In this document: piece by piece, positions 59,040 through 64,000 of the stretch
How the letters are laid out: each line of letters starts with the position of its first letter
Numbering within the stretch: position 1 is the first letter of the stretch
Assembly (NCBI GenBank): GCA_013393415.1
Contig: JABXHI010000033.1
Coordinates: 1 to 64,000 of the forward strand
From: Micrococcaceae bacterium
GTDB lineage: Bacteria > Actinomycetota > Actinomycetes > Actinomycetales > Micrococcaceae
Length of the DNA: 64,000 nucleotides
Reading direction: 5' to 3'
Translations under genes and position numbers: made by a program
Notes under the pieces: generated by a model
Told to the model about the DNA's origin: nothing
What the model saw: only the letters and a program-made list of their open reading frames with translations
Database searches by the model: none

Positions 59040-59210
59040 ATGAAAGACCATCAACCGTTTCACCTCGAACTCAGCGATGACAGCGGTGCCAACACTGCAG
59101 AGTATTCGGTAGAACAGACACGTGACCAACTGGTCATAGTAAAGCCCCGGCATGACCGCAAATCATCCGGGGCGTGGAACACGGTAAAACGGACCGTGCT
59201 CAGTGTCTAG
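59040..59210 (+). pseudogene. truncated Flp/DUF4244-type prepilin
   Basis: A 56-residue ORF with TAGGAG upstream, next gene after tadC (59 bp). Residues 1-24 (ending LSDDSGANTAEYSV) look like the start of an actinobacterial DUF4244/Flp-type prepilin, in which a hydrophobic pilin helix of about 25 residues should follow. Instead the frame continues with a charged, unrelated sequence (EQTRDQLVIVKPRHDRKSSG...). The break lies near 59110 and coincides with the start of the phage-like element. I infer disruption, not a functional pilin. Confidence 0.5.
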
Positions 59211-59538
59211 TGTATGCCAACACTATAGGTTCTGTCAGGCCCGTTGAGCTTTGTGTTCCGGGCCTTTTTTCATCACCGTTCGGGCCATAACTTAACGGGC
59301 CGGTCATATCCTTTGGGAACTGTTGCGTACCGGGTGACAGGGAACCTGCAGGCCAGCGGGAACTACCACCATACTCTGAGACGCCCTCAAAAATGAGGGG
59401 GTCTAGTTGTGATGGGCGAACGCTCGGAGAGCTAGGACGGGGCCGGCGGGTTTTTTGGGGATGGGGTCTCATAGCCCACAGCCCCCTCCGGGGTCCTTAT
59501 CTAAACCCACGTGACCCTCTACAGAAAGTAACAGCGAT
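59211..59538. other. junction region, no gene
   Basis: No ORF with support. It contains an intrinsic terminator at 59237-59270, a small inverted repeat CCCTC-AAAAAT-GAGGG near 59383 and G-rich stretches around 59440. A copy of TGCCAACACT lies at 59215-59224; another is at 59087-59096 inside the prepilin fragment. Confidence 0.4.
59237..59270 (+). terminator. intrinsic terminator
   Basis: AGGCCCG, a 15-base loop and CGGGCCT followed by a run of five T. It probably ends transcription from the Tad side before the phage-like genes. Confidence 0.65.
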
Positions 59539-59742
59539 ATGAAAACCGTTGACCCTATCGAACTCATGAGAGCTGAAAATTATATACGTCAGGTAGTCAT
59601 GGATAACAGCTTCACAGTGCGGCATGACGTTGAGGCGATTGTGAGAGAGTTCTGGCAGATTTTCGGTCATTTCGACTGGGAAATTATAGGGTGGGACACC
59701 GACCGCTATTGGGCCATTATTGAAAAACACCGGATCTACTAA
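59539..59742 (+). CDS. small protein, phage-like element
   Basis: A 67-residue acidic protein (MKTVDPIELMRAENYIRQVVMD..., ending WAIIEKHRIY) with aromatic residues in the C-terminal half. No recognised domain, no span. First plus-strand gene of the element, 19 bp before the next gene. Function unknown. Confidence 0.6.
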   Translation: MKTVDPIELMRAENYIRQVVMDNSFTVRHDVEAIVREFWQIFGHFDWEIIGWDTDRYWAIIEKHRIY

Positions 59743-60320: not shown

Positions 60321-60662
60321 TTAGAGGCGGCCCTGTGCCTCAGCGTCCTCACAGACCGGCGTATCAGGCTGAGCGTAGCAGGGCGTTATCAATGCTGAGT
60401 CGTCAATCTCAGCGTCATCGGTGTAAGCCATAGCCCCGGGGTGCTCATCTAGCGCGGCTAACCATTCGTCAGCCGTTTCACATGCTGACAGTGTTTCAAT
60501 AATGAGCGGGTCAGCTGCAACCGGGTCTGTTTCCGCCGCCGCTGTTTGCATAGAGTCAAGACAGGCCGCTGAGGCTTCGGCCTCATCGTTGCTACCGCAG
60601 GCAGACAGGGATAAAAGGGCACCGGCAGCCAATGAGGCGCCTAACAATTTGAGAGTACGCAT
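60321..60662 (-). CDS. lipoprotein in the phage-like element
   Basis: A 113-residue protein with a signal peptide and lipobox LSAC (Cys at about residue 22), then an acidic domain with four more Cys (SAACLDS, LSACETA, TPCYAQP, VCEDAE), which could make two disulfides. It lies on the minus strand with its stop facing the terminator of the plus genes. Phage-encoded lipoproteins are often superinfection-exclusion factors; that role here is inference. No ribosome-binding site is obvious. Confidence 0.7.
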   Translation of the reverse strand: MRTLKLLGASLAAGALLSLSACGSNDEAEASAACLDSMQTAAAETDPVAADPLIIETLSACETADEWLAALDEHPGAMAYTDDAEIDDSALITPCYAQPDTPVCEDAEAQGRL

Positions 60663-60732
60663 AGGGCTAGGCTAACAGCGCGCTCCAGGGGTTTATTCAG
60701 GCTATTCACAGATTACGCGGGCGTCGGGCGGG

Positions 60733-60769
60733 TGTCACGGTGTATGTCACGCGTGACATGAGCGTGACA
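60733..60769. promoter_or_regulatory. palindromic TGTCACG array
   Basis: Four half-sites: TGTCACG at 60733-60739 and 60745-60751, then CGTGACA at 60753-60759 region and 60763-60769. The centre is a perfect 16-bp palindrome ATGTCACGCGTGACAT (60744-60759). It is upstream of the lipoprotein gene (minus strand) and looks like an operator or a replication/partition site. Confidence 0.65.
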
Positions 60770-60896
60770 GTGATTTGCCCTGAGCGTGTGGAAAAAAATA
60801 CCGGGGAGAGATTGCGTAAGCCCCCGGGTGCGGAGCCGTTGAGGGGTGGGGGCTGTACCCCCTGGGCTGTTTCTGTTGCGGTTTTGGGCATAAGAA

Positions 60897-60937
60897 AACG
60901 GCCCGCCGGCGTCGGTGTTGACGCTCAGCGGGCCGTT
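60897..60937 (-). terminator. terminator of the capsid gene
   Basis: AACGGCCCGC / GCGGGCCGTT with an inner GCGTC/GACGC pair in the loop. Read on the minus strand the stem is followed by TTTTCTT. Ends the capsid transcript. Confidence 0.75.
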
Positions 60938-60948
60938 GACTCTGCTAC

Positions 60949-61803
60949 TTATTCAGTGCTGTTTGCTGTAACAGTGAACTTGCCGAGGCGCTCAGGCCGG
61001 ACAACGTTCCAACCAATACGCCAGGTAGCGCGTACGGCGACACCGTCAGACGTAAAGTAAACGCTTTCGTCAGTATCTACTCTGACCGGGCCGGCGGCGC
61101 TAATGACCGCGTTGTGATCGACTACTAGCCCGCTGTTGGGCTGCATAGCCGGGGTGACGGTCACGGGCAGGCTGAGCAATAGCCGTTCGGCGTCATTGGT
61201 GCCGGCGCCGATGAGTGTCGTCTGTGAGCCGTCTGAGGTCTTGAGCTTACGCAGCGCGGCCCATGCCAGGGGGTCTAAGATAACCCCGGTGGGGGCTGAG
61301 CCGTTAGCCTCTAGCTGTGCTACGAGATCGACCAGGGGGTCTAGGTTCGCGGTGATTGCCTCATCATTGACCGTGATCCCGTCAATGTTGACGAGGCCGG
61401 CCGGGGGCGCGTTCTTGCCGGCGGCGGGGGCGGACTGAGTCAGAAAAGCCTGGTCGGCCTTTTTGGTGATGGCCCGGGCTGTTGAGGCGGCTAACTGATC
61501 GGCGGTGCCGGCCTGACGGTATTGCTCATTGGTCAGGCGTACTAGCTGAGTGATTTTCCCGGTGTATACGAGTACCTCATTCAGCGCCGGTTCAGACTCA
61601 GGAATTTCGTTACCCTCAGCGGTGAACTGAGCCTCATCGTCTGCAACATAGCCAACACGTAGAGACGGCTGGTCGCCGTCAATGTTTGCTGAGACGGTTG
61701 AGTGATCGAGAATGAGCGCGTTTTGTAGGGTGTCCTCAGGCGCAAACATGTTGAGGTCTGGAGACCAGGCCCGGGCGCTTTTGACGGTTGAAAGTGTAGG
61801 CAT
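60949..61803 (-). CDS. HK97-type major capsid protein
   Basis: A 284-residue protein with the HK97-fold capsid pattern: N-terminal arm (LNMFAPEDTLQNALILDHSTV), an E-loop/spine region (VLVYTGKITQLVRLTNEQYRQ, TARAITKKADQAFLT), a P-domain with GVILDPLAWAALRKLKTSDG and a final VRATWRIGWNVVRPERLGKFTV strand. It has no scaffold domain of its own, consistent with a separate upstream scaffold gene. GGAAAGGG precedes the ATG. Confidence 0.82.
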   Translation of the reverse strand: MPTLSTVKSARAWSPDLNMFAPEDTLQNALILDHSTVSANIDGDQPSLRVGYVADDEAQFTAEGNEIPESEPALNEVLVYTGKITQLVRLTNEQYRQAGTADQLAASTARAITKKADQAFLTQSAPAAGKNAPPAGLVNIDGITVNDEAITANLDPLVDLVAQLEANGSAPTGVILDPLAWAALRKLKTSDGSQTTLIGAGTNDAERLLLSLPVTVTPAMQPNSGLVVDHNAVISAAGPVRVDTDESVYFTSDGVAVRATWRIGWNVVRPERLGKFTVTANSTE

Positions 61804-62728: not shown

Positions 62729-62886
62729 TAGTAAATCTCCGGGTCAATAATGTCTAGGATCTTGGACAGTTTTTCAGCGTTATTTTTAGCGCGGTTTTCC
62801 CATAGACGAGACCGCTTTTTCCACAGTTGAATCTCATCGCGTGCCGCCTCTAGTTCAGTTTTCAGTTGCTCAATTTGGGTGGTCAT
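62728..62886 (-). CDS. small coiled-coil protein, phage-like element
   Basis: A 52-residue protein (MTTQIEQLKTELEAARDEIQLWKKRSRLWENRAKN..., ending DIIDPEIY) with heptad-like leucines and charges. Its stop overlaps the scaffold-like ATG (TAATG). AAGGAAAC precedes its ATG. It may help capsid assembly or be regulatory; unknown. Confidence 0.65.
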   Translation of the reverse strand: MTTQIEQLKTELEAARDEIQLWKKRSRLWENRAKNNAEKLSKILDIIDPEIY

Positions 62887-62915
62887 GATGTTTCCTTTCT
62901 TAGCTGTGACGTTAG

Positions 62916-62981
62916 TGACGTGAGGTCCCAGTGATTCCTTATAATCGTTTTCTCACGAGGAATGACTGGGACCAGACGTCA
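62916..62981. repeat. long inverted repeat
   Basis: Arms 62916-62939 and 62958-62981 (24 bases each, 3 mismatches) with an 18-base loop; core GGTCCCAGTGATTCCT / AGGAATGACTGGGACC. It lies between the primase-helicase stop and the small coiled-coil gene. Could be a terminator, RNA control element or a packaging/replication site. Confidence 0.65.
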
Positions 62982-63020
62982 TTAGTGTCATCACCCCTAG
63001 TCAGCGCGGTTTGAGTGGAA

Positions 63021-64000
63021 TCAGTCACAATCATGCTTTAGACCGATTCCGCCTAAACCGCGTGACCCGGCTGTTCTAACGTCATTGATTTCTGGCAGTT
63101 GCCGGACCTGTTTTCCTAGGGCGCGTGACGATAACTGAGCCTCACCATTGACCGCCGCCCACGTGTTATATTCCTGAGTGAGTTTTGCTGTTGTGACGCT
63201 AAACGCCGGACCCATAACGCAGCGGTCATCTATAAACCGGGCTAGCGCGTCATTGTCAGACCTGTAGGCGTTCGTACTAGACCTGACGGCCTCAGGCTCA
63301 TCGAGGCCGGCCTGTTGGTAAGCGCGTAGCCCCTCAACCGCCCAGGTCAATACCCCGGATAATTGAGCCTCTAGCCGCTCTTCTAAGCCGTGATCTTCGC
63401 GGCCCTCAAATGAGACGTTGAACGGTACAACACGTACCCGCGCCCAGGCGGCCTTAGCGTCAGCGTCCATTGCCGGCAAATCATTCGTTTGTAAAAAGAA
63501 TGAGTGTGAGGGCATAAACCTGACAAAATTTTGGCCCATGTGTTTCGCGGTGATTTCGTCACCGCCGGTGAGCGATTTCATCAGGGCCTCGTTCATGCGG
63601 TCGTTTTTGTCTAGCTCAGACATGACCGCAAAACGCGCCCCGCGGAGCTCCATCTGAGCGGCTAGCTCCCCGGCTGTTTTACCGCCGTGACGGCCTGTAA
63701 CTAACAGGTCATTAGTTGCGGTGATTGCGTAGTCACCGAGGGCCTTAGACAGGGTCCTAGCCAATACGCCTTTACCGTTACGGCCGGTGCCTGTTGCTAT
63801 GAGCATGACGTGTTCAATAACCCGGCCGATGAGTGACAGGCCGGCGTAGCGTTGCATAAAGCCCCGGACCGCCGGGTCCGGTAGAGATGAGGTTAGAAAA
63901 TCTGTCCATGACTCTGCCTGAGCGCCGGGGTCATATGAGGCGTTCGTGACCTTAGTTATTCGGTCTGCCGGGTTATGCGGTCTCATCTGTAGGTCATGGA
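63021..64000 (-). CDS. D5/P4-family primase-helicase, C-terminal part
   Basis: The frame is open to the right edge, so only the last 326 residues are seen. They form a SF3-type helicase: Walker A ATGTGRNGKGVLARTL, Walker B-like RFAVMSELDKND, motif C-like SFFLQTNDLP, and a C-terminal D5-like winged domain. The upstream primase half is outside. It would replicate the element. Start not visible. Confidence 0.85.
   Translation of the reverse strand, partial: HDLQMRPHNPADRITKVTNASYDPGAQAESWTDFLTSSLPDPAVRGFMQRYAGLSLIGRVIEHVMLIATGTGRNGKGVLARTLSKALGDYAITATNDLLVTGRHGGKTAGELAAQMELRGARFAVMSELDKNDRMNEALMKSLTGGDEITAKHMGQNFVRFMPSHSFFLQTNDLPAMDADAKAAWARVRVVPFNVSFEGREDHGLEERLEAQLSGVLTWAVEGLRAYQQAGLDEPEAVRSSTNAYRSDNDALARFIDDRCVMGPAFSVTTAKLTQEYNTWAAVNGEAQLSSRALGKQVRQLPEINDVRTAGSRGLGGIGLKHDCD

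Follow-up and report, generated by a model that had tools for sequence, protein, structure and literature searches.

Four clustered TGTCACG half-sites on a candidate capsid-bearing satellite, a putative binding site for a phage-type replication initiator

The stretch of DNA analyzed here (the window) comprises 64,000 nucleotides of a Micrococcaceae contig. An integrated element of 8.1 kb begins at about window position 59100 and ends at contig position 67188, as delimited by comparison with two genomes of the same genus in which the site is empty (G110 and G093), and the gene cluster in which it is inserted resembles, by eye, a Tad pilus locus. Read along the minus strand, the element encodes a large serine integrase, genes of 144, 85 and 106 aa, a D5/SF3 helicase-primase, a 52-aa ORF, a scaffold-like gene (named by its position, with weak matches only) and a major capsid gene, followed by the array that is the subject of this work and by a lipoprotein-like gene; three small ORFs lie on the plus strand at the left end. 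The features are as follows.

59100..59107, no strand: left att-like segment, from the empty sites in G110 and G093, exact letters by eye
60321..60662, minus strand: 113-aa lipoprotein-like gene, signal sequence and lipobox by eye
60710..60738, minus strand: promoter-like hexamers toward the lipoprotein gene, read by eye
60733..60739, plus strand: half-site 1, TGTCACG
60744..60759, no strand: perfect 16-bp palindrome ATGTCACGCGTGACAT, sole exact copy in the genome
60745..60751, plus strand: half-site 2, TGTCACG
60752..60758, minus strand: half-site 3, CGTGACA as read on the plus strand
60763..60769, minus strand: half-site 4, CGTGACA as read on the plus strand
60787..60795, minus strand: DnaA-box-like TTTTCCACA near the array, seen after the fact
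60897..60937, minus strand: hairpin downstream of the capsid gene with 10-nt arms, a 21-nt loop and a T-rich tail
60949..61803, minus strand: major capsid protein (Pfam Phage_capsid, 6.6e-20; PHROG major head protein, 5.6e-22)
62906..62993, no strand: proposed main origin after the helicase-primase gene, aligned with relatives
63021..64000, continuing to contig position 64478, minus strand: D5/SF3 helicase-primase gene (Pfam and PHROG matches)
67181-67188 of the contig, no strand: partner att-like segment, same empty-site comparison, exact letters by eye

The helicase-primase matches its PHROG relatives over their second part only, and its predicted model (mean pLDDT 82) resembles AsfvPrimPol (E 3e-25) and the SaPI5 primase-helicase 7ola (E 5e-17). 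The integrase, the 85-aa protein, the primase, the scaffold-like gene and the capsid gene have homologues, in unchanged order, in a Microbacterium locus (L013). The element also resembles phiRv1 in its gene order, and we know of no TGTCACG-type array in phiRv1-like candidate PICIs. An integrase and a major capsid gene were found together in this one small element; in PMC10654092, a candidate PICI is one that combines integration machinery with a major capsid gene, and phiRv1 and phiRv2 are termed PICI-like. With the phiRv1-like candidates described there, the element shares a serine integrase, a capsid gene, small size and integration without a tRNA site (PMC10654092). Judged from its genes, we regard it as a phiRv1-like, capsid-bearing and probably phage-dependent candidate satellite. 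A non-coding block beside the left att-like segment (59140-59736) is 75-79% identical to stretches that sit elsewhere in two genomes of the same genus (G140, in two places, and G073), and is possibly a conserved end or packaging region.

The array at 60733-60769 contains four inward-pointing TGTCACG half-sites around a perfect 16-bp palindrome, all located as the preliminary description had placed them. Consecutive half-sites start 12, 7 and 11 bp apart; between parallel half-sites the distance is 12 bp in the left pair and 11 bp in the right pair. The density and symmetry had been judged far above chance, which proved correct for the cluster and not for the palindrome. There is a single place in the window where one heptamer occurs four times in 40 bp, and none of 200 order-1 Markov resamplings produced such a cluster, whereas 1.3 perfect palindromes of at least 16 bp are expected per window and two were seen. 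The non-random feature is therefore the four-heptamer cluster; the palindrome alone is ordinary and, with about one expected per window, was rejected as a signal by itself. Enrichment of the heptamer over the whole window was likewise rejected (12 seen, 13.1 expected). No AT-rich stretch was found beside the array.

With respect to its neighbours, the array lies downstream of the capsid gene and precedes the lipoprotein ATG (60662, minus strand) by 70 bp; the gene and hairpin coordinates bear out its earlier placement between the lipoprotein gene and the capsid terminator. The arms of this hairpin (60897-60906 and 60928-60937, with the T-rich tail on the minus strand, by eye) were missed by the terminator scan, which covers loops of 3-8, because the loop is 21 nt long. 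The lipoprotein-like protein gave no Pfam match and weak PHROG matches only.

An operator of the lipoprotein gene, at which a repressor or activator, encoded by the element, by a prophage or by the host, would bind the four half-sites while the -35 overlaps half-site 1, is the main rival to the reading we prefer, and we consider it rather unlikely. Besides the distance to the ATG, it draws on symmetric inverted half-sites, which would suit a dimeric regulator, and on promoter-like hexamers read by eye, GTGACA (60738-60733, inside half-site 1) and, after 17 bp, TAATCT (60715-60710), which agree with the consensus at 8 of 12 letters. However, a promoter scan with a threshold of 9 of 12 letters found no promoter upstream of the lipoprotein gene, and none of 14 lipoprotein relatives has the array upstream. 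The preliminary description had thought of the element's own repressor; no regulator or repressor was recognised by Pfam and PHROG among ten element proteins, several of which are of unknown function.

That description had also tied the motif to its conservation in related elements, and here the outcome was divided. Behind the capsid gene, the array is absent in all six named capsid relatives; L013 has a single half-site 5 bp past its capsid match, and no capsid relatives were confirmed in IMG/VR. The 14-mer TGTCACGCGTGACA occurs in 3 of 295 family genomes, which by estimate is about the chance expectation, and the three-half-site pattern matched the host genome only, both among these 295 genomes and among 394 genomes of the class. 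On the other side, an element of the same genus (L166), whose primase is 74-75% identical, carries the 12-bp core GTCACGCGTGAC at L166:11050-11061. Found in one of roughly ten elements inspected, this core is suggestive only. It does not lie upstream of the lipoprotein-like gene of L166, which argues against the operator. The conservation of the array lies in unrelated phages and not in related elements.

A scan of IMG/VR with the 14-mer TGTCACGCGTGACA gave at least 120 loci. At 52 of the 120 examined, extra half-sites stand no more than about 80 bp away or another 14-mer lies nearby, the half-site background being 0.12 per kb, and 27 of the remaining 68 are copies of one sequence. The pattern TGTCACG-N(2-14)-TGTCACGCGTGACA gave 84 matches in all, and the same pattern with TGACTCG as the half-site, used as a composition control, gave 1. 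Eighty of the 84 matches were examined, and they collapse into 54 distinct contexts. The pattern permitted offsets of 13-17 bp as well; in the 54 contexts all 68 offsets of extra half-sites are 9-12 bp (46) or 18-21 bp (22), and over all 80 loci these two classes take 97 of 98 offsets, the remaining one being 15. Spacings of one or two helical turns would place neighbouring subunits on one face of the DNA. With offsets of 12 and 11 bp and an abutting inverted pair, the array of the window shows the spacing of the phage arrays, and it may thus be a helically phased site for several molecules of one DNA-binding protein.

The genes that hold these arrays point to what such a protein might be. In 59 of the 80 loci the 14-mer lies inside an ORF of 180 aa or more (where several ORFs covered it, the longest was used, and some look spurious). 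Pfam recognised DUF1376 in 17 of these 59 ORFs, Phage_rep_org_N in 2, and DnaT, DnaB_2 and DnaA_N in one each; in PHROG, with 25 of 46 families listed, up to 18 matched primosomal protein, 17 replication protein, up to 9 replication initiation protein and up to 7 DnaD-like loader. As a control, 24 long ORFs over single 14-mers fell into replication families in up to 7 of 24 cases, so the 14-mer by itself marks initiator genes, and the array adds less than the 14-mer alone as a marker of replication genes. Of the two reading frames that the 14-mer leaves open, one is used 43 times and the other 23 times, and therefore the constraint is on the DNA. DnaA boxes do not mark the viral arrays, as they were found within 100 bp at 3 of the 80 loci, near background.

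A basic ERQRRxRxR stretch stands just before the array in 28 of 40 distinct ORFs (alignment A1), and array-bearing initiator ORFs of different N-terminal families often have it in common. It is a candidate reader of TGTCACG, but an initiator with other repeats (L294) has one too, and it stands out in none of the element's twelve proteins.

Further blastn searches connected the array with named phages. The 47-nt window query returned 34 records, and among the 30 listed the closest named matches are two actinophages, Propionibacterium phage G4 (25/25 nt, E 5e-4) and Actinomyces phage LC001 (42 nt, 86% identity, E 1e-4). The match to G4 covers window positions 60734-60758, spacer included. In G4 the array adjoins the 3' end of the replication initiation gene gp62 and is presumed to be the origin of the phage, while the array of the window lies between capsid and lipoprotein genes. 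The match to LC001 spans the four half-site positions, but only two of the four aligned half-sites are exact in LC001, whose record is without annotation; in this phage about 250 bp contain nine exact half-sites, with one more at a greater distance, against four in the window. Three M. abscessus prophages match over 30 nt at 90-93% (E 5e-4 to 2e-2) in a gene annotated as helix-turn-helix protein, and the one inspected has one exact half-site.

Weaker blastn matches (E 0.3 to 3) were obtained with Gordonia phage DumpsterDude, cluster J mycobacteriophages, Trixie and an Escherichia phage tail gene; within this range, the Trixie, Escherichia and Felixounavirus-type matches were taken as chance. 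A 38-nt piece of the L116 array retrieved Gordonia phage BritBrat (E 2). In both DumpsterDude (gp67) and BritBrat (gp87) the array lies within a gene annotated as replication initiation protein. The cluster J Mycobacterium phage Redno2 has five TGTCACG half-sites, four of them parallel at an exact 12-bp period (L288:3001-3050), in a stretch of about 850 bp that adjoins the integrase and has no annotated genes.

When initiators were chosen by protein, the heptamer was rare. Relatives of the Gordonia-type initiator, found in 6 of 99 genomes, have TGTCACG in 0 of 6 genes, and some carry other repeats. Eleven initiator-like (DUF1376) genes of named phages contain one heptamer in all and no TGTCACG array, and two of them carry other repeat arrays; the notion that DUF1376 genes as such imply TGTCACG arrays was rejected on this count. 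Because of these two results, we take TGTCACG to be one initiator specificity among many, and a coincidental operator is possible.

Taken from sequence comparison, the array is a putative binding site for a phage-type replication initiator that a helper phage probably supplies, a reading to which we assign an even chance. Arrays of this type would be the iterons of the replication origin in many tailed phages, and the protein that reads them would be the initiator. Pfam and PHROG recognised no phage-type replication initiator among ten element proteins, and the reader would therefore be supplied by a helper. No resident helper phage was seen in the family (295) and class (394) samples or in the 99-genome initiator search. 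Against the initiator reading stands the position of the array, which is neither within nor adjoining any replication gene of the element: its neighbours are the lipoprotein and capsid genes, and the helicase-primase gene is 2.25 kb away. Origins with iterons inside initiator genes are a known kind, and lambda ori lies inside O. In lambda-type origins, as in many of the TGTCACG phages, the repeats stand inside the coding region of the initiator, whereas the array of the window is non-coding and belongs to an element without a recognised initiator gene.

The element has a better-placed candidate for its own origin. Satellites such as the SaPIs and P4 have SF3-helicase origins in which iteron pairs flank a central stretch. 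This layout would fit the block at 62906-62993 beside the helicase gene and does not fit the TGTCACG array, which lies 2.25 kb beyond the end of that gene. The block has ACGTCA twice at period 9 and, on the opposite side of a core, TGACGT and a weaker TGACAC; the core is common to L166-L170. A primase search gave 31 matches in 28 genomes; 20 of the matches were taken as loci, and these were scanned up to 450 bp past the primase match for two direct and two inverse 7-mers (2+2) with at most 2 mismatches in total and a period of 8-13. Such 2+2 inverted iteron arrays follow the primase in 10 of the 20 loci, exact six-mer versions do so in 7 of 20, and either version was found in 0 of 300 shuffled windows. 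The ten loci are L027, L028, L030-L033, L037, L039, L041 and L042; the iteron unit varies between elements, with AGTGGCG, GGGTACA, AGTGCAG, GCAGTTT and GGTGACA among the examples.

We propose 62906-62993 as the main origin of the element, a weaker block of its relatives' layout, as it has three exact six-mers and one unit with two mismatches and does not pass the automated 2+2 scan. Because this block is present after the primase, the TGTCACG array is probably a second site rather than the main origin. The origin suggested in the preliminary description is thus kept in part: the array has the geometry that phages show in or beside initiator genes, but the main origin appears to be elsewhere.

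An improbable alternative is that the helicase-primase of the element itself reads the array, which would then be a second replication region in addition to the main origin at 62906-62993. Satellite P4 has crr as its second replication region, TGAC plus a purine is common to the half-sites of the two places, and in a phage-like contig (L136) five TGTCACG half-sites directly follow an SF3 helicase gene, whose best named relatives are in Streptomyces phages at about 35% identity. The DnaA-like TTTTCCACA near both places, seen after the fact, would also suit it. The units differ, however (TGACGT versus CGTGACA, in opposite orientation relative to the centre), L166 has the core GTCACGCGTGAC despite GGGCAG units after its primase, and cluster scans of other elements gave no second copy of their origin units. 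Both DnaA-box-like nonamers of the element are TTTTCCACA (60787-60795 near the array and 62817-62825 near the proposed origin), and two were seen, again after the fact, where 1.23 are expected.

Some other mobile-element function, for example partition, recombination or packaging, is very improbable. The half-sites of Redno2 in their unannotated stretch beside the integrase would agree with such a role, but viral arrays are often within replication genes and the att-like segments of the element are located elsewhere. The partition site named in the preliminary description finds no footing, as Pfam and PHROG gave no Par match among ten element proteins (the 52-aa and 56-aa ORFs left out).

If the array is bound by a phage-type initiator, binding could lead to helper-driven copying of the satellite. 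Alternatively, the array might titrate the helper's initiator, or binding might cover the promoter-like region and so couple the lipoprotein gene to helper infection. A more specific and doubtful version gives the satellite a pair of origins: besides its own SF3-helicase origin it would carry one that was captured from a helper phage or mimics that of the helper and is read by the helper's initiator, with the lipoprotein gene under the same site. Were it true, the satellite could detect the helper, have its DNA copied by the helper's machinery or titrate the helper's initiator, and the TGTCACG specificity would be common to the initiators of many unrelated phages.

The origins of many phages and satellites lack annotation, and two DNA signatures emerge here. 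TGTCACG half-sites at 9-12 or 18-21 bp lead to initiator genes in many of the 54 viral contexts, and 2+2 inverted iterons after a primase gene (10 of 20 loci) predict satellite origins. If the array answers to a helper's initiator, it would be a direct link between satellite and helper replication. No description of the TGTCACG motif was found among the literature matches listed, which are a small part of all and come mostly from outside subscription journals, and this is weak evidence of novelty. What would be new is the recurrent TGTCACG spacing rule, and that it holds on a satellite for which a different origin is proposed.

Iterons inside a presumed replication gene were also seen in another capsid-bearing element (L171, G232:C5:1-18000), which is present in two tandem copies 8057 bp apart and has a long array of AAGGTGGC and AAGGTGTC units.
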